This document shows positions 30,754-63,072 of a stretch of DNA of 64,000 nucleotides, piece after piece; the first letter of the stretch is position 1; each line of letters starts with the position of its first letter. The notes beneath the pieces are model-generated. The model did no database searches. It was not told the DNA's origin and saw only the letters and a list, made by a program, of their open reading frames with translations. The DNA is from Arcobacter sp. CECT 8985 (GTDB lineage Bacteria > Campylobacterota > Campylobacteria > Campylobacterales > Arcobacteraceae), in contig NZ_PDKC01000001.1 of NCBI RefSeq assembly GCF_004116495.1, positions 1 to 64,000 of the forward strand, given 5' to 3'. Both the position numbers and the translations under genes were made by a program.

Positions 30754-32227
30754 CTTCTGTTATAACCTCATTTTTTTTCATTATCTCTTTTAATTCATTT
30801 ATCTCATCAGCATTATGAGACAACTCTGAACGAAGTTCATTTTTAACTCGTGTTATTAGTTCATTAGCATCATTTGCCATTTTATATTTTTCAACCATAT
30901 TAGTTGCTATTTTTAACGCATTTTTTAAATCATCACTATTTACAGCATATTGTTGTCTTTTTATAACTTCTACACCAATATTACCAGCTAAATATCTTCT
31001 AATATTCTCTACTAATTCATTGTATGAAGGATAAGTTGAAGATAACAAAGGAATCCCCTCATCAAACAATGCAACTTTACTTTTACAAATAAATGCTTTA
31101 CTAGCTTGATAAATACATAAAATCTCTTTTTGTCTTTCATCAAGTATTTTCATCTGTTTTTTACCAAATTGAAGTTTGTTTTTTGCGATTTCAATATCTT
31201 CTTGTTGTAAAACTTTTGCATCACGTTTTATCATATTTAATAAAGCTTCATTTACTAAAGTTGCAAGTGCTGCTGAAGAAAAACCTGCAGTATTATCTGC
31301 TAGTTTACTAACATCAAAATCTATTTTTTTATTTTTTAAATATAAAGATAAAATATGTTTTCTATCTTCAATATTTGGTAAATTTAAAAATACTCTTCTA
31401 TCAAATCTTCCTGCTCTTAAAAGTGCATCATCAAGTACATCAATTTTATTTGTTGCAGCAATAACAATTACACCATTATCACCTTCAAAACCATCCATTT
31501 GAGTCAATAATTCGTTTAGTGTAGCTTCTCTTTCATCATTTGAAGTTCCTGTTCTTTTTTTACCAATAGCATCAATTTCATCAATAAATATAATTGCAGG
31601 AGCACTTGCTTTTGCTTTTATAAAAAGCTCTCTTACTTTTTTTGCACCCATTCCTACATATATTTGAACAAAACTAGCTCCACTTTGATAAAAAAATGGA
31701 ACATCTGCTTCACCTGCAACGGCTCTTGCAATTAAAGTTTTACCAACACCTGGAGGTCCAACTAAAAGTACACCTTTTGGTAGCTTTACATCATGAGAAA
31801 TATATTTTTTAGGAGAATTTAAAAAGTCAACTATCTCTTCAAGTTCCTCTTTAACTTCTGAAATCCCAGCAACATCTTTAAAAGTTATATTTGAAGTTAC
31901 TGCTTTTATATTTGAGTTTTCTATCTCATGATTTTGTGTATTAGATTCTTCTTTTACTTGTTGTTTTTGAAGCTCAGTTTCAAAACCACTTTTAGTTTTA
32001 ATTCCTTTTTTATCAAAGTATGCTTTAATTTTATCTTGCTTTAATTTAAGAAAAATTGCAACTACTAATAATAAAAATAAAAAAAGAAGCCCCATATAAT
32101 ATGAGCCTCCTTGAATTTGGGTACTACTTTTATACATAGTATATATAAACAATACAACTAAAATAGTTGCAGAAAGTATCATTAATTTTAAATTTTTGTC
32201 TAAATTTTTATTTGAATTTTGCGACAT
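30743..32227 (-). CDS. FtsH-like membrane AAA ATPase lacking the protease active site
   Basis: A 494-aa FtsH homologue with two N-terminal transmembrane helices (about 15-31 and 44-62). A complete AAA module follows: Walker A GPPGVGKT (157-164), Walker B IIFIDEID (212-219) and RAGRFDRR (second region of homology, about 271-278). Where FtsH has the zinc protease motif HEAGH, this protein reads YQASK (373-377), so both His ligands and the catalytic Glu are gone. The remaining C-terminal domain is shortened. It should unfold or remodel membrane proteins without degrading them, or help an active FtsH encoded elsewhere. It overlaps mtaB (20 nt) and bioV (11 nt). Confidence 0.9.
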   Translation of the reverse strand: MSQNSNKNLDKNLKLMILSATILVVLFIYTMYKSSTQIQGGSYYMGLLFLFLLLVVAIFLKLKQDKIKAYFDKKGIKTKSGFETELQKQQVKEESNTQNHEIENSNIKAVTSNITFKDVAGISEVKEELEEIVDFLNSPKKYISHDVKLPKGVLLVGPPGVGKTLIARAVAGEADVPFFYQSGASFVQIYVGMGAKKVRELFIKAKASAPAIIFIDEIDAIGKKRTGTSNDEREATLNELLTQMDGFEGDNGVIVIAATNKIDVLDDALLRAGRFDRRVFLNLPNIEDRKHILSLYLKNKKIDFDVSKLADNTAGFSSAALATLVNEALLNMIKRDAKVLQQEDIEIAKNKLQFGKKQMKILDERQKEILCIYQASKAFICKSKVALFDEGIPLLSSTYPSYNELVENIRRYLAGNIGVEVIKRQQYAVNSDDLKNALKIATNMVEKYKMANDANELITRVKNELRSELSHNADEINELKEIMKKNEVITEDDF

Positions 32228-54529: not shown

Positions 54530-57457
54530 CTAACTATATTCTGGTTTTGACTGGGCTACTTTTAACTCTTTTTGATTGTTTATATAATTTGTGTCATTTA
54601 TTGATTTTGTTTGTGTTCCTATGTCATCATAGAATTTCTCTACAAAATTTACAATCTTATCTAAAACTCTTGGTATCACTTTTTTTCGTTCAAGTAATTT
54701 GGGTTTTATTTTTAGTGTACTTGCTATATCATCTTTTAAAGGTAATCTTTGCTCATATATATATTTATCTACAACTCTTCTCACCTTTTTACAATCAAGA
54801 TTTTCATCACTACATAATTCTTTGTAGGCTTTATCTTTTTGTTCTTCCCAATATTTATCAAACTCTTCTTCTATATCATCTTCGTTTATTGCATATAGAT
54901 TTTCATTGATAAACTTTTCTATAAGTTCTTTTTTACTTCTTAGTTGTGGATTGTTTGTCAAGATGTTTGAGATATTTTCTTTTTGTTTTTTCTGTTCTTC
55001 TTCATCTGAATCTTTGTATTTAGCTAAGAGTTTTAAAATATAGGCTACATTTATCTCATCTTTATGTATAAGTTCTAGTTCAAAATCAACATCTTCTAAA
55101 ATAGATACTTTTTCGCCTTGTTCACCTCTTTTGGGTTTCATATCTAAGTATTTTGATAAGTAGTTATTAAACATCTGTTCACTCATAGATAAATCAGACC
55201 ATTTAAAATCACTAAAGCCTTCTAAGATATTTTTTATTCTCATTATCTCTCTAAAAGCTTTGATAAATTCTAGTTTATCATCTTCACTTATCAAAGTATC
55301 TACACTAGCAACTGTTGGAGCTATTTTAATTAGAACTTTAAAAGCTTCATTGAACTTTTTAACATACTCTTCGTATGGTTCCATCAAAATAATATCTTTT
55401 GCATCACTTTGTGAGAAAAGTGCTATTGCATCATCGCAAGCTTTTTTGATGTTTCTAAAACATACTATATTTCCTTGAGATTTCACTTCATCAAGTATTC
55501 TATTTGTTCTACTAAAAGCTTGTATAAGTCCGTGGTATTTTAAATTTTTATCTACATACAAAGTATTTAATCTTTTGCTATCAAATCCAGTTAAGAACAT
55601 ATTTACTACAAGAAGAATATCAACCTCACCTCTTTTAACTCTTTTTGAGAGTTCATTGTAGTAGTTATAAAAAGTCTTGCTATCTTTGGTACTGTATTTT
55701 GTACCAAACATTTTATTATAATCTTTGATATATTCATCTAGCTTTTCACGGCTGTGTTTGTTTATATGTTCTTCATCGATATGTGCACCGTCTGATTCAT
55801 ATAAACCATCTGCACTTTTGTCCTCTTCATTATCTGCATATGAAAATATTGTAGCTATTTTTAAATTGTGTTGTTTTTTCTTAAAAATCTCATAATATTT
55901 CGTAAGCATATCTACAGAACTTACTGTCATCATTGCAGTAAAATCTTTGTTGTGAGTTTTTCTGCTATGATTTGCTATAATATAGTCAACTATCTTTTCA
56001 ACTCTATCATCACTTTCTAGTAGTTCTTGTGTGTCTATGTCTTCTACTTCTATATCTATATTTGTAGCACTGTTTTCTTTCTCTTTATATCTTCCTATAT
56101 ATTCAACGGAAAATTTTAAAACATTGTCATCACTTATAGCATCTGTTATCACATATCTATGAAGTCTATCATCAAATAAATCTGCAGTTGTTCTTTTGCC
56201 TAACTTATTTCCCATAGCATTTTCAGGGAATATTGGTGTTCCTGTGAAACCTATCATTTGATTGTTTGTAAAAAACTTGTTTATATTTAGGTGTGTTTCT
56301 CCAAACTGACTTCTATGACACTCATCAAAGATAAAAACTATATGTTTATCTTTTTGTTTTGACATCTTTTCTATATATTTTCTTTTTTTGATTGCTGTGT
56401 TTAGTTTCTGAATTGTTGTAACTATTAACTTTGTATCATCACTAAATTGTCTAACTAAAGTAGCAGTATTGTCTGTACCATCTACACTTCCATCACTAAA
56501 AGAGTTAAACTCTTTTGTAGTTTGAAAGTCTAAGTCTTTTCTATCTACTACAAAAACTACCTTATCTACTTTTGGAAGTTTCATAAGAATTTGTGCTGTT
56601 TTAAAAGAGGTCAAAGTTTTACCACTTCCAGTTGTATGCCAAATATAGCCATTTCTTTTTGAAGTATTTACTTGCTCTATAATAGCTTCAACAGCATAAA
56701 ACTGATAAGGTCTTAGCACCATAAGTATCTTATCAACTTCAGCCAAAACTATATACTTACATATCATTTTTGAGATGTGGCATCGCTCTAAAAAGAAAGA
56801 GGTAAACTCTTCAATATTTGTGATGTTTTTATTATCTTTATCTGCCCAAAAGAATGTTTGCTTGAAGGTTTGTTTTTTATTGTTTGCATAATACTTTGTA
56901 TTTACTCCATTACTTATAACAAAGATTTGAATATATTGAAACAAAGCACTGTTTGCTCCATAAGAGTGTTTTTGATAACGATTGATTTGATTAAAGGCTT
57001 CTTTTAGCTCTAATCCTCTTCTTTTAAGTTCAATTTGTACTAGTGGAAAACCATTTATCAAAATAGTTACATCGTATCTGTTTGCATAAGTACCATTTAC
57101 ACTTATTTGATTTGTTACTTGAAATAGATTTTGACACCAGTGTTCAGAGTCTAAAAACTCCATATAAAAGTTTGTACCATCATCTTTGTTTAGAACATAC
57201 TTATCTCTTAGTTTTTTTGATTTTTCAAAGACACTTCCACTTTGTAGATGGTTTAGTATCTTTTTAAACTCATTATTTGAAAAAGTAGTTTTATTGTGTT
57301 TTTCTAACTGTCTTTTTAGATTTTGTTCTAGCTGTTCATCATCTTTTATAGATACTCTTTGGTATTTTAAAGATTCAAGTTGTTTGATAAGATTTTCTTC
57401 TAGTATTGCTTCGCTTTGGGTACTCAATTTTCTATTCCTACTTCTATTTATAATCAA
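54530..57457 (-). CDS. hsdR: Type I restriction endonuclease R subunit
   Basis: A 975-aa motor/nuclease subunit. The N-terminal endonuclease site reads RYDVTILINGFPLVQIELKRRG, with Asp129 and the Glu143-x-Lys145 pair of the PD-(D/E)xK fold. The superfamily 2 translocase follows: Walker A HTTGSGKT (274-281), motif II FIFDECHRSQFG, motif III GFTGTPIF, and motif VI around LIQAFSRTNRIL. A helical C-terminal domain contacts HsdM/HsdS. The reading frame is intact. It cuts DNA lacking the methylation specified by HsdS. A 223-nt gap separates it from hsdS and contains a counter-oriented small gene. Confidence 0.95.
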   Translation of the reverse strand: MIINRSRNRKLSTQSEAILEENLIKQLESLKYQRVSIKDDEQLEQNLKRQLEKHNKTTFSNNEFKKILNHLQSGSVFEKSKKLRDKYVLNKDDGTNFYMEFLDSEHWCQNLFQVTNQISVNGTYANRYDVTILINGFPLVQIELKRRGLELKEAFNQINRYQKHSYGANSALFQYIQIFVISNGVNTKYYANNKKQTFKQTFFWADKDNKNITNIEEFTSFFLERCHISKMICKYIVLAEVDKILMVLRPYQFYAVEAIIEQVNTSKRNGYIWHTTGSGKTLTSFKTAQILMKLPKVDKVVFVVDRKDLDFQTTKEFNSFSDGSVDGTDNTATLVRQFSDDTKLIVTTIQKLNTAIKKRKYIEKMSKQKDKHIVFIFDECHRSQFGETHLNINKFFTNNQMIGFTGTPIFPENAMGNKLGKRTTADLFDDRLHRYVITDAISDDNVLKFSVEYIGRYKEKENSATNIDIEVEDIDTQELLESDDRVEKIVDYIIANHSRKTHNKDFTAMMTVSSVDMLTKYYEIFKKKQHNLKIATIFSYADNEEDKSADGLYESDGAHIDEEHINKHSREKLDEYIKDYNKMFGTKYSTKDSKTFYNYYNELSKRVKRGEVDILLVVNMFLTGFDSKRLNTLYVDKNLKYHGLIQAFSRTNRILDEVKSQGNIVCFRNIKKACDDAIALFSQSDAKDIILMEPYEEYVKKFNEAFKVLIKIAPTVASVDTLISEDDKLEFIKAFREIMRIKNILEGFSDFKWSDLSMSEQMFNNYLSKYLDMKPKRGEQGEKVSILEDVDFELELIHKDEINVAYILKLLAKYKDSDEEEQKKQKENISNILTNNPQLRSKKELIEKFINENLYAINEDDIEEEFDKYWEEQKDKAYKELCSDENLDCKKVRRVVDKYIYEQRLPLKDDIASTLKIKPKLLERKKVIPRVLDKIVNFVEKFYDDIGTQTKSINDTNYINNQKELKVAQSKPEYS

Positions 57458-57524: not shown

Positions 57525-57701
57525 ATGAAAAAAACTATTGCAAATAGCAACAAACACTTCTCTTCTGTTACTAAAAAAAGAAAAATGATTGTAAACTCTG
57601 TTTATAATTCTGCTAAAGTGGAAGGTTCTAAAATCACAAAAAAAGAACTTATAGCATACTATAACAATATTCATTTTAACTCACACAAACATCTTTTGTA
57701 A
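57525..57701 (+). CDS. 58-aa basic protein with a Fic-inhibitor-like motif
   Basis: A small gene oriented against the hsd operon, with its own TATAAT box, AGGAG ribosome site at good spacing, and ATG. The protein is basic and helical. Its middle, VYNSAKVEGSKITKKEL (residues 26-42), matches the start of class II Fic proteins, where (S/T)xxxE(G/N) forms the inhibitory helix (compare YNSNAIEGNTLT-type sequences). Here the motif is Ser29-Ala-Lys-Val-Glu33-Gly34. No Fic catalytic domain (HxFx[D/E]GNGRxxR) follows, so this is either a stand-alone antitoxin-like peptide or a leftover. The last 21 nt overlap the end of hsdS. Fic genes are known inside hsd loci of related Campylobacter, which makes the link plausible. 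Confidence 0.65.
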   Translation: MKKTIANSNKHFSSVTKKRKMIVNSVYNSAKVEGSKITKKELIAYYNNIHFNSHKHLL

Positions 57702-58853
57702 AAGTGCTTTTTTGAACTTTTGAGTCTCTTCTAGGACTTTTTTATTTTGTGATATTTTTGTATCAAGAGAAGATAATAAGTTTGCTATTTTTGTTTGTTC
57801 TTCTACACAAGGTAATTTTATTTTTAAATAAGAATATTCAGAAATCCAATACCGTTTATGTTCACCTAATGGAAAATGTAATCTTTGTATAAATTCATAA
57901 ACAAATTTTAAATTAACATTTTTATTTTTTTCTTTTAGCAGTTTCATTGCAGATGATTTAATTTTAAAATCAAAATCTACATAATGATTTGTCGTTGTGA
58001 AATCATCAAAAATTATCACTGAACCTTTAGAATAAATTCCTTCTTTTTCATTTGTATAACCTAAAATAAAAGTTTTCCCTGCTGTTAAAACTGGAATATC
58101 ATAGCTATCACTGTATTCTGTACTCCTAACAATATAATTTGTAGGCTGTTCATAATCTAAAACTTCTTTTAATTTAATTTCTTCCCATTTAGGATAATCA
58201 CTTCCATCTGCTTTTTTAAATCTAAGCTTTTGTGAAAATATCTTTTGCATCATAGCTTTTTTATAGTTTTGTAGTAACTCATCTTTTTTTGATAGTTGAT
58301 TTATCTTTTTATCAATAGAGGATAAAAAAGAGGCAATTTTTTCTTGCTCTTGTTTGGAAGGGAAAAGAATAGGTGTATTTTTTATTGTTCTTAAGGATAA
58401 GTTTTTAATAGTAGAGCCAGTTAATTCTGATGTATAAAAATACTGTATTTTATTAGATAAAAGTTGATTACTAATAAAATATTTGTTGGTTTTAGATGTC
58501 TCTATATTAATATAAGATGCACTTTTCCCAAGCATTATTTTCTCATTTTTATAAAAAGCAATATTACCTATCGTACCATTTATTGACATAAGTATAGTAT
58601 TATCATTTAGTTCCCTATAATGTTTTTCATATTCTTCTTTTGACACCCTCTTTGTTTTCTCATCTAAAATAATTTCACCATTTTTAAGATTATTCCCATT
58701 TACAAAATAATATTCTCCTAACTCATCATATACTGGTGTACTGTGAATACCATCACTAATTTTTATACAAAGCTTTTCTAAACTTTTCTCTTCCCACTCC
58801 CCAGAAAATTCTTTAAACCTAAGCTTTGGTACTCGTAATTTTTCATTTTTCAT
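57681..58853 (-). CDS. hsdS: Type I restriction-modification specificity subunit S
   Basis: A 390-aa DNA-recognition subunit with two target-recognition domains. TRD1 spans about residues 8-170 (LRFKEFSGEWEEKSLEKLC... NTPILFPSKQEQEKIASFLSSID). A coiled-coil spacer with KKINQLSKKDELLQNYKKAMMQKIF follows. TRD2 starts at KRFKKADGSDYPKWEEIKL-type sequence near 205 and ends with the second EEQTKIANLLSSLDTKISQNK repeat and coiled coil. The two TRDs define a bipartite target I cannot predict. It starts 15 nt after hsdM. The reading frame is complete and shows no inversion-type repeats, so phase variation by shuffling is not evident here. Confidence 0.94.
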   Translation of the reverse strand: MKNEKLRVPKLRFKEFSGEWEEKSLEKLCIKISDGIHSTPVYDELGEYYFVNGNNLKNGEIILDEKTKRVSKEEYEKHYRELNDNTILMSINGTIGNIAFYKNEKIMLGKSASYINIETSKTNKYFISNQLLSNKIQYFYTSELTGSTIKNLSLRTIKNTPILFPSKQEQEKIASFLSSIDKKINQLSKKDELLQNYKKAMMQKIFSQKLRFKKADGSDYPKWEEIKLKEVLDYEQPTNYIVRSTEYSDSYDIPVLTAGKTFILGYTNEKEGIYSKGSVIIFDDFTTTNHYVDFDFKIKSSAMKLLKEKNKNVNLKFVYEFIQRLHFPLGEHKRYWISEYSYLKIKLPCVEEQTKIANLLSSLDTKISQNKKVLEETQKFKKALLQKMFV

Positions 58854-58868
58854 TATTCACTCTTCATT

Positions 58869-60425
58869 TTAAAAGGGAGTTTTAATACCAAGCTCATCAC
58901 AAAAGCTTTTTATCAATAAGTCATTTTCAATTATCTCTTTATCAAGTTCTTTAAGTTCACTTGAAACCTCATCTAAGTCTATTTCCTCTTCTTCTTCAAA
59001 AGTATCTACATATCTTGGAATATTTAGATTGTAGTCGTTTTCTTTTATCTCTTCTAGGCTTGCTTTGTATGAGTATTTATCTTCTTGGATTCTTTGTTTG
59101 TATGTTGTTACTATTTTTTCTATATCTTTAGCTCTTAGATAATTTTGATTTTTCATCTTTTCAAAATGTTTTGAAGAGTCTATAAAAAGTACATCATCAC
59201 TATCTTCTCTGCACTTTTTAAATACCAATATACAAGTAGGTATTGAAGTTCCATAAAAGATATTTGCAGGCAATCCTATAACTGCGTCAAGATAGTTTCT
59301 ATCTTCAATCAAGTATTGTCTTATATGTCCTTCTGCACTTCCTCTAAATAAAACTCCATGAGGTAGTACAACTGCCATAGTTCCATTGTCATCAAGATGG
59401 TGTATCATATGCTGTACAAAAGCAAAATCAGCTTTTGTCTTAGGTGCTAGCTTTCCATATTGGGAAAATCTATCATCACTTAGGTGTAGTGGATTTGCCG
59501 ACCAGTGAGCAGAAAATGGTGGATTTGCAACTATTGCTTCAAACTTCATATTTTCGTGCTGTGGTCGTTCTAGGGTGTCTTCTTGTTTTAAGTCAAACTT
59601 TCTATAATGAACATCATGCATAATCATATTCATACGAGCAAGGTTGTATGTGGTTCTGTTTAACTCTTGTCCATAGAAGTTTGATACATCTTTTACCTCT
59701 TTTGCAACCCTTAAAAGAAGTGAGCCAGAACCACAAGTTGGGTCATATACTGATTTTAGTTTTTCTTTGTTTGTTGTAACTATTTTTGCTAAGATTTTTG
59801 AGACACTTTGAGGAGTATAAAACTCACCTGCTTTTTTACCAGCTCCCGCTGCAAATTTTGAGATAAGATATTCATAAGCATCACCAAGTACATCTCTATC
59901 GTGGTTTTTTAGTTCAAAGTTTATCTCATCAAGATGAGCTAATACTTTTGAAATAAGAGTATTTTTTTGCTCTTCTGTTCTTCCTAATTTTTTAGAAGTA
60001 AGGTCAATATCTGAAAACAAATCCTCAAAATCATCTTCACTTTCGTGCCCCATAGTTGAAGCTTCAATATTTCGTAAAATCTTTGTCAAATCATCTAAGA
60101 TAAAATTGTCTTCGTCACTGTTTCCTCTTTTTGCAATAGCAGAAAAAAGTTCACTTGGTTTTAGAAAATATCCAAGTTGTTCTAGTGCATCTTCTTTAAT
60201 AGCTTCAAGATATTCTATATCTTTTTTCTCATCAAGGTTTGTATATATAAGTTTGTCTTCTTCTAAAAGCTCATTTGCATAAGTTTCCATCTTTTCAGAT
60301 AGGTATTTAAAAAAGATAAATCCAAGGATATAATCCCTAAATTCATCTGCATCCATTTTACCTCTTAGGGTATTTGCTATATTCCATAATTGTTGTTCTA
60401 ATCTTCGTTTATTTTCTTCGCCCAT
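58869..60425 (-). CDS. hsdM: Type I restriction-modification methyltransferase subunit M
   Basis: A 518-aa adenine-N6 methyltransferase. The N-terminal helical domain (HsdM-N, residues 1-150) is followed by AGEFYTPQSVSKILAKIV, the SAM-binding motif YDPTCGSGSLLLRV and the catalytic NPPF motif in IVANPPFSAHW. The length is typical. It methylates the target chosen by HsdS, protecting host DNA. It is the first gene of the hsdM-hsdS-(58-aa)-hsdR block. The 210 nt upstream contain a decayed radC 3' end and the hairpin after the PemK-like gene, so its promoter is embedded in that remnant. Confidence 0.95.
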   Translation of the reverse strand: MGEENKRRLEQQLWNIANTLRGKMDADEFRDYILGFIFFKYLSEKMETYANELLEEDKLIYTNLDEKKDIEYLEAIKEDALEQLGYFLKPSELFSAIAKRGNSDEDNFILDDLTKILRNIEASTMGHESEDDFEDLFSDIDLTSKKLGRTEEQKNTLISKVLAHLDEINFELKNHDRDVLGDAYEYLISKFAAGAGKKAGEFYTPQSVSKILAKIVTTNKEKLKSVYDPTCGSGSLLLRVAKEVKDVSNFYGQELNRTTYNLARMNMIMHDVHYRKFDLKQEDTLERPQHENMKFEAIVANPPFSAHWSANPLHLSDDRFSQYGKLAPKTKADFAFVQHMIHHLDDNGTMAVVLPHGVLFRGSAEGHIRQYLIEDRNYLDAVIGLPANIFYGTSIPTCILVFKKCREDSDDVLFIDSSKHFEKMKNQNYLRAKDIEKIVTTYKQRIQEDKYSYKASLEEIKENDYNLNIPRYVDTFEEEEEIDLDEVSSELKELDKEIIENDLLIKSFCDELGIKTPF

Positions 60426-60485: not shown

Positions 60486-60554
60486 CTAAAAGCAAACTCT
60501 TTGATTTTTCAAACTTACAAAATCATCTTTTGTAAATATCACATGGTCAAATTG
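60486..60554 (-). pseudogene. Duplicated 3' end of radC (remnant)
   Basis: The minus strand reads FDHVIFTKDDFVSLK before running to a stop at 60486. This matches the last part of RadC (LDHVIFSKDGFISLK). By my own count, 42 of 48 bases at 60507-60554 equal 61052-61099. The two copies are exactly 545 bp apart and flank the PemK-like gene. No upstream part of radC accompanies the remnant. Confidence 0.7.
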
Positions 60555-60616
60555 TTTCAAATTGACAAAACAAATATTCTTAGATATAATACTTTTACAA
60601 ATATCCTTCGGGACGA

Positions 60617-60634
60617 CTCACCTTTTTAGGTGAG
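60617..60634 (-). terminator. Hairpin after the PemK-like gene
   Basis: A 7-bp perfect stem CTCACCT / AGGTGAG with a 4-nt loop 1 nt past the stop of the PemK-like gene. It is followed on the minus strand by TCGTCCCGAAGGATATTTG, including a small TCC-TTCG-GGA hairpin. No clear T-run. Confidence 0.5.
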
Positions 60635-60635
60635 G

Positions 60636-61037
60636 TTACTTTATTAGTTCCATAAATTTTTTCTTCATATTTTCAAAATCATTCTTATTTATAACTCCAA
60701 TTTTATTTAATAGTCTATTTGAACTATATAATTTCAATTGAGATAATAAAGCTATATTCTTGCTAATAGTTTTACCTTTTTTAAATTCAAAATAGTAATA
60801 AAATTGTTCTTCTTTTATTTGTGTTGATAAAGGTATTCCAAAAAACATATTTTTATTAAACTTTTTAAAAATTATAACAGGTCGAACAAAATTATCTCCC
60901 TTGCCATTTTGCTCAAATCCAATATTTTGTCCCATTTTTATATAAAAAATATCTCTATTTCGAAAGCCTACAAGAACTTTTTCCTTATGAGCTTCTTTTT
61001 TAACTTTATTCCATTTGTCAAAATCATTTTCTATCAT
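60636..61037 (-). CDS. PemK/MazF-like toxin-family protein
   Basis: A 133-aa protein. The core NFVRPVIIFKKFNKNMFFGIPLSTQIKEE and ALLSQLKLYSSNRLLNKIGVI follow the PemK/MazF endoribonuclease fold (arginine in RPVII, then the PLS/T strand and the QLR-type motif QLKLYSSNRL). Family toxins cut mRNA at short sequences and are neutralised by a small partner. No antitoxin gene is adjacent: the upstream gene is radC, whose stop overlaps its ATG (ATGA). An N-terminal extension of about 45 residues (WNKVKKEAHKEKV...) precedes the core and could be part of self-inhibition or DNA binding. The gene sits between radC and a duplicated radC end. Confidence 0.75.
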   Translation of the reverse strand: MIENDFDKWNKVKKEAHKEKVLVGFRNRDIFYIKMGQNIGFEQNGKGDNFVRPVIIFKKFNKNMFFGIPLSTQIKEEQFYYYFEFKKGKTISKNIALLSQLKLYSSNRLLNKIGVINKNDFENMKKKFMELIK

Positions 61038-61711
61038 AAAACACCCTCTTCTTTCAAACTTATAAATCCATCTTTTGAAAATATCACATGGTCAAGTAGT
61101 TCTATACCTAAGATTTTTCCTGATTGTTTTAGTATTTCTGTTACTTCCATATCTTCATTACTTGGCTTTAGTATATTGCTTGGGTGATTGTGTGATACTA
61201 TTATACTTGCGCATCTTTTCTCTATTGCGTATGAAAAGACTTCTCTTGGATGAACTAAACTTTGATTTAGAGTTCCTATTGTTATTACTTTTTTATCTAC
61301 TATATAGTTTGCTCCATCAAGATATATAGCTATAAAATACTCTTGTTGTTTGTTTTTGTATGGTTTTAGCTCTTCATATATATCATTTGGTGATGTTATT
61401 TTTGTACTTTGATTTTGAATTAAGTATCTTTTACTTAAGTTTATTGCACTTACTATTTGACAAGCTTTTGCTTTACCTAAACCATGTATTTGAAGTAGAT
61501 TTTCTAAGCTTATATTTTCAAAGTCTGATTTAAATAGTTTGATTATCTCTTTTGATAAAGTAATGACATCTTTGCCTTTTACTCCACTTCCTAAAAGTAT
61601 TGCCATAAGTTCATAATCTTTAAGAGAATCTGCACTTTTTTTTAGTAGTTTTTCCCTTGGTTTATCTATAGAGTTTAGTGATTTTATTCTGTTTTGCATA
61701 AACTTCTCCAA
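61034..61711 (-). CDS. radC: RadC family JAMM-type protein
   Basis: A 225-aa protein with a helix-hairpin-helix near LLQIHGLGKAKACQI (residues 72-86) and the JAMM/MPN metalloprotease-type metal motif: His174 and His176 in VSHNHPS and Asp187 further on. Despite the name, RadC is not proven in DNA repair; such proteins are abundant on mobile elements and near restriction genes. The reading frame is complete. Its stop overlaps the start of the PemK-like gene. A copy of its 3' end lies 545 bp downstream, suggesting that something inserted or duplicated at this point. Confidence 0.9.
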   Translation of the reverse strand: MEKFMQNRIKSLNSIDKPREKLLKKSADSLKDYELMAILLGSGVKGKDVITLSKEIIKLFKSDFENISLENLLQIHGLGKAKACQIVSAINLSKRYLIQNQSTKITSPNDIYEELKPYKNKQQEYFIAIYLDGANYIVDKKVITIGTLNQSLVHPREVFSYAIEKRCASIIVSHNHPSNILKPSNEDMEVTEILKQSGKILGIELLDHVIFSKDGFISLKEEGVL

Positions 61712-61756: not shown

Positions 61757-61966
61757 TTAATTATTATCTTTTTCTTTAGTAGTAAATATTAGTTTTGCTT
61801 CATCAAGTAATTTTTGAGCTTCATCTAGTTGTTTTATACCTGATTTATATACTTCAATTGAGTTTTGAAGTGTTATATCTTGGTTATTTAATTTTTCTAA
61901 TAGCTCTTTTGCTTTTAATATCTTTTCTTCAAAAGCTAATGTTTCTTCTTTTTTTTCTTCGCTCAT
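61757..61966 (-). CDS. xseB: Exodeoxyribonuclease VII small subunit
   Basis: A 69-aa helical protein. The hallmark is LAFEEKILKAKELLEKLNNQDITLQNSIEVYKSGIKQLDEAQKLLDEAK, the XseB helical hairpin that forms the long arms of exonuclease VII with XseA. XseA is not in this window. Its start overlaps the end of metX by 4 nt (ATGA), so it is co-translated with that enzyme, a common arrangement by chance rather than function. Confidence 0.9.
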   Translation of the reverse strand: MSEEKKEETLAFEEKILKAKELLEKLNNQDITLQNSIEVYKSGIKQLDEAQKLLDEAKLIFTTKEKDNN

Positions 61967-63072
61967 TTTATTCCTTTTAGTATATTTCTTACGTGGTCTT
62001 CAAATTTTTCAACTTCTACAAGAAATGAGTCATGTCCTGATTCACTTTGTATTTTTTTGTATGTTACTTGATCTTTTTTCCCTATTTTACACATAATATC
62101 GTATATTTCTTCCATCTCTTCTGGGAAAAATAACATATCATCTGAAAAAGAGATAAGGTGAAGATTGCATTTTACTTTTGAAAAAACATCTTCTAGTGTA
62201 TCTTCATTTCTTGATACATCAAAAATATTCATTGTTTTACATATATACAAATAAGACAATGGATCAAATATTTTTGGAAAACTATATGAGTTATACTCTA
62301 AATATCTCTCAACTTCAAATCTTCCAAAAAGTTCATAAAGCCCATCTGTATGTGCATAGTTTCTACCAAATTTTTTATTAAAAAGTGTTGGGCTTAAGTA
62401 TGCAATTAATCCTGCCATTCGTCCTATTGCAAGTCCTGGCAAACCACTTGCTAATAAATCATCTTTTTTATAGTGTCCATTGTTAAATGCAGGGTCATGT
62501 CTTACAGCTTCCATTGCTATTTTGTTTATTGCTATTGCCCAAGGTCTTGTGTATGCTGTTGTTGCTAAAGCTATAACAGTATCAGCAAATCTTGTATGCT
62601 CAATTGAATAACACAGTGCTTGCATTCCACCCATAGAACCACCAATTACTGCTTTTACATGATGGATTCCAAGTGAATCAAAAAGAATTCTTTGTGCTTT
62701 TACAATATCAGAGATTGTAAGTACAGGAAATTTAAATCTATAAGGTTCACTACTTGGATAGTCAGGACTCAAAGGATTTGTTGAGCCAAAACATGAACCT
62801 ATATTATTTGTACAAATTACAAAATATTTCGTAGTATCTACTGCTTTTCCATCACCTATAAATTTGTCCCACCATCCAGGCTTTGCCTCATCTGCATATC
62901 TTCCTGCTGCATGATGACTTCCTGCTAGTGCATGACAAATAACTATTACATTTGATTTATCTTCGTTTAATTCTCCATATGTTTCATATATTATCTCAAA
63001 AGGTTCTAATATCCGACCACTCTCTAAATATAGAGGTGTTGTGAACCTTGCCGTTTTTGTCTCTATCTTCAA
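61963..63072 (-). CDS. metX: Homoserine O-acetyltransferase
   Basis: A 369-aa alpha/beta-hydrolase-fold acyltransferase that activates homoserine with acetyl-CoA (or succinyl-CoA) at the start of methionine synthesis. The nucleophile is in the VIGGSMGGMQAL motif, and NPLSPDYPSSEPYRFKFP, YLSPTLFNKKFGR and the C-terminal ESGHDSFLVE (catalytic His, near 348) complete the active site. The length fits MetX. Acyl-donor choice cannot be read with confidence. I see no SAM-type riboswitch in the 92 nt upstream. Confidence 0.94.
   Translation of the reverse strand: MKIETKTARFTTPLYLESGRILEPFEIIYETYGELNEDKSNVIVICHALAGSHHAAGRYADEAKPGWWDKFIGDGKAVDTTKYFVICTNNIGSCFGSTNPLSPDYPSSEPYRFKFPVLTISDIVKAQRILFDSLGIHHVKAVIGGSMGGMQALCYSIEHTRFADTVIALATTAYTRPWAIAINKIAMEAVRHDPAFNNGHYKKDDLLASGLPGLAIGRMAGLIAYLSPTLFNKKFGRNYAHTDGLYELFGRFEVERYLEYNSYSFPKIFDPLSYLYICKTMNIFDVSRNEDTLEDVFSKVKCNLHLISFSDDMLFFPEEMEEIYDIMCKIGKKDQVTYKKIQSESGHDSFLVEVEKFEDHVRNILKGIK

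Follow-up and report, generated by a model that had tools for sequence, protein, structure and literature searches.

A solo PemK-like toxin gene and the conserved RNA facing its 3' end: a probable toxin-antitoxin cassette at the radC locus of Arcobacter sp. CECT 8985

The window, i.e., the whole stretch of 64,000 nucleotides analyzed here (Arcobacter sp. CECT 8985, contig NZ_PDKC01000001.1), carries on its minus strand metX, xseB, radC, pemK, a remnant of radC, hsdM, hsdS and hsdR, in this order (Table 1). The start of pemK lies within the stop codon of radC, so that the two genes overlap by 4 bp. The initial annotation had placed a PemK-like gene beside a type I restriction locus, and both the PF02452 match of the product and the presence of hsdM, hsdS and hsdR on the same strand bear this out. 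The direct repeat of the radC 3' end described there was reproduced with 42 of 48 identical bases at an offset of 545 bp, while the next best ungapped match of the 48-mer in the window reached 31/48 on the plus strand and 30/48 on the minus strand. The lower copy keeps the reading frame of radC but belongs to no gene, and it ends in ...NLKQFDHVIFTKDDFVSLKNQRVCF and a stop codon, as compared with ...ELLDHVIFSKDGFISLKEEGVL and a stop codon at the end of radC. Therefore, it was assigned as a radC 3'-end remnant, and its description as a gene remnant stands. The hairpin noted beside pemK is present as well, but the consensus promoter on the opposite strand and the convergent RNA had been missed.

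Table 1. Features of the radC-hsdR region (positions refer to the window).
Feature	Position	Strand	Remarks
radC	61034..61711	-	PF04002, TIGR00608; last ~100 bp exchanged with the downstream block
pemK-like toxin gene	60636..61037	-	133 aa; PF02452; MazF fold with extra N-terminal helix
Predicted small RNA convergent to pemK	60597..60645	+	3' end a guess
RNA leader ACAAAUA	60597-60603	+	
Hairpin 1, UCC-UUCG-GGA	60604-60613	+	followed by linker CGA
Hairpin 2	60617-60634	+	terminator-like stem abutting the pemK stop
Sigma-70 promoter TTGACA-17-TATAAT of the predicted RNA	60562..60590	+	12/12 consensus; conserved in relatives
radC 3'-end remnant	60507..60554	-	42/48 to 61052-61099; G107 has a counterpart at the same place
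hsdM, type I restriction operon	58869..60425	-	adjoins the pemK-RNA unit
hsdS	57681..58853	-	
hsdR	54530..57457	-	

The pemK product matched PF02452 with an E-value of 2.4e-7 and 31.3 bits (cut-off 23.1). Its AlphaFold model (mean pLDDT 79.9) adopted the MazF fold, with an additional low-confidence helix at the N terminus. Foldseek with this model gave a best E-value of 6.6e-6, and a VIA comparison with MazF chains yielded Z 14.3 and an rmsd of 1.7 over 93 aligned positions; these chains are the matches listed in the fold searches, where the absence of ToxN is uninformative. A profile search reached MazF chains at an E-value of 4e-4. In the alignment with MazF, PemK has counterparts of the active-site RP and S/T positions. 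The toxin thus shares family and fold with the toxins of type II MazEF/PemIK systems, and as a 133-aa MazF-fold protein it differs from the small hydrophobic toxins that are usual, with exceptions, in type I systems.

The plus-strand promoter of the predicted RNA stood out: a search of 800 bases gave six promoter-like sites, with 5.8 expected, and the other five scored 9/12. The RNA model R1, which was built with a supplied structure and contains the -10 but not the -35 element, matched at 60585-60638 with 75.6 bits. Folding of the stretch was about equal on both strands (z of -2.3 and -2.8). Rfam returned no family at its cut-off for the element in the window or at 20 further loci, with chance-level matches only.

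Comparison with a genome of another genus (G107) was informative about the history of the locus. Identity to the window was 78% for metX, 77% for xseB, 79% for positions 1-500 of radC and 87% for positions 501-600, and it was 97% for the last 78 bp of radC. Downstream, it was 99% for the RNA with its promoter, 88% for the remnant, 100% for the spacer and 96-97% for hsdM; pemK is deleted in G107. The corresponding values for G003, from the genus of the window, were 87% for the radC body and 85% for the last 78 bp. Since the identity to G107 jumps from about 78% to 97% at the 3' end of radC and remains high through hsdM, an exchange between genera of the block from the radC 3' end to hsdM, with a crossover inside the radC end, is supported.

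A radC match was present in 23 of the 60 genomes searched, own genome included, and among five other genomes of the genus only in G003. G001, G002 and G004, of the same genus, carry neither radC nor the island; a 226-aa gene, which belongs to the ThiF family in G003, directly follows xseB with nothing between, i.e., the hotspot is empty. In G005, a different type I system is present, and of radC only a 5' scrap is left. In G007, radC is followed by a related hsdM (84.5% at the amino acid level), with one radC end and no pemK. An empty site of this kind, with a single radC end and no PemK-like gene, had been proposed as a check on the insertion idea, and G007 provides it with hsdM in place. Given this site and the three genomes without radC or island, the pattern named beforehand as speaking against insertion, i.e., both copies at the same divergence in all related genomes and no empty site, was not encountered. 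In the family, the interval after metX-xseB (window 61757-63072; L063-L073) was observed to be a hotspot that holds type I restriction systems of different kinds, some accompanied by radC and others not.

The remnant of G107 has the same place and edges as that of the window, and its interior resembles the functional radC end; the interior of the window's remnant resembles the radC end of G105. We infer conversion between the copies. A second, downstream radC-end match was found in G107 only, among nine radC-pemK or radC-RNA loci compared (G013, G093, G100, G104, G105, G106, G107, G111 and G112, with a run of N at this place in G093), and the remnant is therefore not private to the window genome. 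Of the proposed insertion of a toxin unit with a replacement radC end, the block exchange through the radC 3' end thus holds in view of the G107 identities, but the remnant is not simply the genome's own old end, as G107 has it too.

PemK relatives were found at 45 places in 32 of 104 genomes of the family Arcobacteraceae, in named genomes (133 stretches, 80 of them kept) and in 4 viral contigs, 46 plasmid records and 7 phage records. A promoter-RNA unit was visible 3' of most relatives inspected, in many contexts. Counts were made by R1; a regular expression and simple rules missed or misplaced some RNAs. The 104 family genomes yielded 48 R1 matches, 31 of them within 150 bp of a pemK match. 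All 31 were convergent and at the pemK 3' end. The 17 unpaired matches include a second copy 239 bp from a pemK match, one in G111 that follows a 175-aa PemK of another subfamily and one at a contig edge (G120). Conversely, every full-length pemK of the family had the RNA unit (31/31; 24 by R1 and 7 by eye), and none of these 31 copies was seen without it. The seven copies scored by eye show the promoter and two hairpins, four of them with weak R1 matches (E 0.003-0.05).

The association extends beyond the family. An RNA-first search in the order covered 298 genomes and found matches in 31, 25 of which lie outside the family. At 24 RNA loci outside the family, several of which are DNA already seen as judged by equal scores (L245 looks like seed L131), the PemK profile detected a PemK opposite the RNA at 21, of which 16 are full length and 5 are partial or broken, and none at L248, L254 and L268; in 21/21 cases the RNA was downstream and convergent. 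In the named genomes, 59 of 79 loci had an adjacent R1 match (11 of these supplied an R1 seed or duplicate the DNA of one), and all 69 matches were on the strand opposite PemK. The 20 loci with no adjacent R1 match include a contig end, divergent forms and several with a visible promoter and hairpins. R1 did not match the C. jejuni pVir, CJIE4 phage, H. suis, C. coli and Ligilactobacillus loci. By eye only, a similar convergent promoter and hairpins were seen at pVir, in CJIE4 prophages of Campylobacter and on a small plasmid of H. suis (L231, L232, L234), with weaker promoters of 10, 8 and 8 of 12, respectively. For pVir (NC_005012), the RNA is predicted to begin near position 31114, opposite pemK.

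The named loci are mostly from Campylobacterota, with metagenome-assembled genomes labeled as Patescibacteria, Alphaproteobacteria and one Halobeggiatoa. As L148 and L149 have the same sequence under different phylum labels, some labels are binning errors; L163, L175 and L181, with GC-rich hairpins followed by T runs, look native. Tandem arrays were also observed: L252 holds three pemK-RNA units and L258 two, and in G106 (L070) a unit lies on either side of radC. In G092 (L093:3668-6401), a unit lies between the genes for phosphoglycerate kinase and glyceraldehyde 3-phosphate dehydrogenase.

The convergent promoter scored at least 11/12 at 51 of 106 pemK 3' ends (a set that includes some DNA counted twice), as compared with 2 of 106 on the other strand and 2 of 279 at other genes; for a score of 12/12, the counts were 25, 1 and 0, respectively. 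Among 79 distinct RNAs found by R1, the -35 element was perfect in 29 and the spacer was 17 nt in 69, and a perfect -35 occurred at 34 of 1765 TATAAT of the R1 loci, the 79 RNAs included. Across 80 distinct sequences, 96.9% of cells were paired and 10 of 10 pairs had changes on both sides; none of 500 shuffles scored as high, and the best slid control reached 0.154 versus 0.548, all on an alignment fitted to the supplied structure, which flatters these figures. Free RNAalifold on an earlier alignment (A1) recovered 2 pairs only, because hairpin 2 was misaligned there.

On the convergent strand, the loop of hairpin 1 (n = 82) was UUCG in 55 cases, UACG in 6, UAAC in 5, UUAG in 3, UUUG in 3, GNRA in 4 and another sequence in 6. 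The single-stranded leader was near-invariant across relatives and UACAAUU-like (U 67, A 68, C/U 82, A 79, A 78, U/A 82 and U 80 of 82); in the window, UACAAAU follows the promoter. Wobble pairs compared with the opposite mismatch (21 versus 13) favored the convergent strand mildly. A T run after hairpin 2 was mostly absent (mean of 3.3 T in 12), and the 3' end of the RNA is therefore only a guess.

Palindromes that form hairpins also occur at DNA recombination or mobility ends, such as integron attC or REP-type elements, and the element could be such an end with pemK as its cargo. Its position between genes in unrelated operons and its tandem occurrence (L252, L258, G106) are in keeping with this. 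By reasoning, however, a mobility end needs neither a near-consensus promoter with a 17-nt spacer (69/79) nor stable RNA tetraloops on one strand, and we consider this explanation very unlikely.

Copies of the RNA were found where the toxin is lost. After radC in G107 and G105, only the first and last codons of pemK are left, with end points that differ between the two genomes, and the RNA matches R1 with 75.6 bits as in the window; the two deletions may be independent or successive. At G105:C2:214444, a broken C-terminal part of pemK stands beside a kept RNA. Only the last pemK codons were seen by eye beside the RNA in G000:C35, G100:C8 and G117, and other matches, e.g., in G060, G061 and G076, have no toxin trace. 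Loci with the RNA only, as against no full-length pemK of the family seen without the unit, form an asymmetry that fits an antitoxin role of the RNA; the RNA-only copies could also be slowly decaying remnants.

At two loci, L217 (G000:C35:4323-4374, in the window's own genome) and L225, the RNA lacks pemK and follows a 193-aa HEPN-like ORF. The relative in L080 of the gene after this RNA is a DUF2779 gene, and related genomes have pemK at the same place. The HEPN-like ORF (G000:C35, G100:C8) was considered as a second toxin and rejected. Its Pfam matches were below the cut-off, its last codons are those of pemK, and its relative in G117 lies on the other side of the RNA. These findings led us to read G000:C35 and G100:C8 as RNA-only remnants.

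Is there a protein antitoxin instead? The neighbors of pemK vary and include radC, hsdM/hsdS, helicase, DNA methylase, pgk, gapdh, DUF2779, phage terminase and relaxase genes. BLAST clustering of neighbors, which could miss very short or divergent antitoxins, showed that, PemK copies aside, no family recurs at more than 12 of the 97 loci: radC-like ORFs were near 12, HsdM-like and cytidylyltransferase-like ORFs near 10 each. An adjacent protein antitoxin gene, as in type II MazEF/PemIK systems, was thus not found across the 97 loci, although very short or divergent ORFs could escape this search. In the window and nine more loci (L068-L076), radC stands directly upstream of pemK with a 4-bp overlap, which is the position of an antitoxin gene. 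RadC, or another neighboring protein, might accordingly be the antitoxin and the RNA incidental. With radC-like ORFs near only 12/97 loci and the other neighbors varying, RadC was rejected as a candidate, and this explanation is scarcely credible.

Two kinds of gene fusion and a second subfamily were observed in addition. At 10 of 97 loci (L159, L132, L136, L148, L157, L158, L168, L170, L171 and L177), an in-frame fusion places PemK at the end of a cytidylyltransferase-like protein. In L094, PemK is joined to the start of an epimerase/dehydratase, and the reading frame contains the RNA. The second PemK subfamily (152 aa; PF02452 with E 6e-7; L063:2042-2640 in G003) also begins in the radC stop codon (G003, G102, G034). 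Its 3' side (L063, L237-L242) carries a different conserved unit that is co-directional; by eye, 6 of 7 loci show a promoter, a GGGCGGUCA...GGCGGGCUCG core and a strong terminator. Rfam gave no match at E<=1 for these six loci.

The system resembles type II MazEF/PemIK in its PF02452 toxin, MazF fold and aligned RP and S/T active-site positions, and differs by the lack of a recurrent protein antitoxin at 97 loci, the convergent RNA unit and the extra N-terminal helix. In type III systems (ToxIN, CptIN, TenpIN), a structured RNA inhibits an endoRNase whose fold belongs to the wider MazF/Kid group; the RNA is a repeat array upstream in the toxin operon with a terminator between (PMC5086642). RNA inhibition of such an endoRNase is also the mechanism proposed here. 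Type III systems differ in that the present RNA is downstream, convergent, driven by its own promoter and single-copy per toxin at most loci; rather than an upstream array, a downstream, convergent position was found in 31/31 family and 21/21 outside cases.

In AbiF systems, a toxic protein is neutralized by a directly bound ncRNA (PMC12373285), and direct neutralization is likewise proposed here. AbiF is a HEPN protein, unlike PemK, and its RNA (RF03085) is upstream, co-directional and made of two motif copies. RF03085 had no match in the window stretch or the 20 further loci scanned. The Rfam RNA RF02913 ('pemK', 61 positions) is tied to pemK genes by name and was reportedly first described by Weinberg et al. 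in 2017. It did not match in the window stretch, the 20 loci or 21 genomes; control genomes gave no match either. The RNA aMEF of E. coli mazEF is also antisense to a MazF-type locus; it differs in its stimulation of mazEF synthesis, in the presence of mazE and in the poor conservation of its promoter sequence (PMC8749433). A literature search, with thin coverage of subscription papers, did not find a solo PemK with a convergent RNA described.

Taken together, pemK and the RNA facing its end are best explained as a toxin-antitoxin pair of a MazF-fold RNase and a convergent two-hairpin RNA that moves as a cassette, a reading from sequence to which we assign a probability of about 0.7. The conserved RNA probably acts as the antidote to PemK. 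It could do so by type I-like control, in which the RNA pairs with the 3' end of the pemK mRNA, or transcription collides, so that toxin synthesis is lowered and the protein is left untouched. The RNA is convergent, and hairpin 2 abuts or overlaps the last pemK codons in most loci; a larger toxin is also known from a type I pair, SymE/SymR. However, the conserved parts are the structure and a single-stranded leader outside the gene, which plain antisense pairing does not need, and the overlap with the coding sequence is small; any overlap with the mRNA is limited to the region of the last codons and the 3' UTR. Neither of the two points is decisive, and type I-like control appears unlikely to us. 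Binding of the RNA to the toxin, by analogy type III-like but convergent and single-copy, is the probable mode, and it is preferred because structure and leader are conserved outside the gene.

In the proposed mechanism of RNA binding, the RNA would be transcribed from its own near-consensus promoter and would be in excess over the toxin, whose synthesis would here be coupled to radC translation. The RNA would bind PemK and block its active site. ACA and UACAU are sites of MazF enzymes. Since the leader resembles them, it may act as an uncut pseudo-substrate in the RNase active site. The pair would move as an addictive cassette. Here it probably came in together with the type I restriction operon, through recombination at the 3' end of radC, and the radC remnant would mark this history. 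A wider proposal is finely balanced between right and wrong. It holds that MazF-fold toxins swapped protein for RNA antitoxins at least twice, once for the ~45-nt convergent RNA with its UACAAUU leader as an uncut pseudo-substrate in the RNase active site and once for the unrelated co-directional downstream RNA of the second subfamily (PemK-B). Both would dock interchangeably at one and the same radC 3' end, ahead of restriction operons, and would give defense islands RNA-controlled addiction units.

Plasmid relatives are annotated as type II PemK/MazF toxins, though an antitoxin gene beside them is not evident. If they are RNA-controlled, these widely spread solo toxins would become a testable family of RNA-antitoxin systems. 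If true, this would link the type II MazF fold to type III-like RNA inhibition and provide an RNase inhibitor in the form of a minimal RNA. In addition, the locus illustrates how a single gene end can serve as the site where toxin cassettes and restriction operons are swapped.
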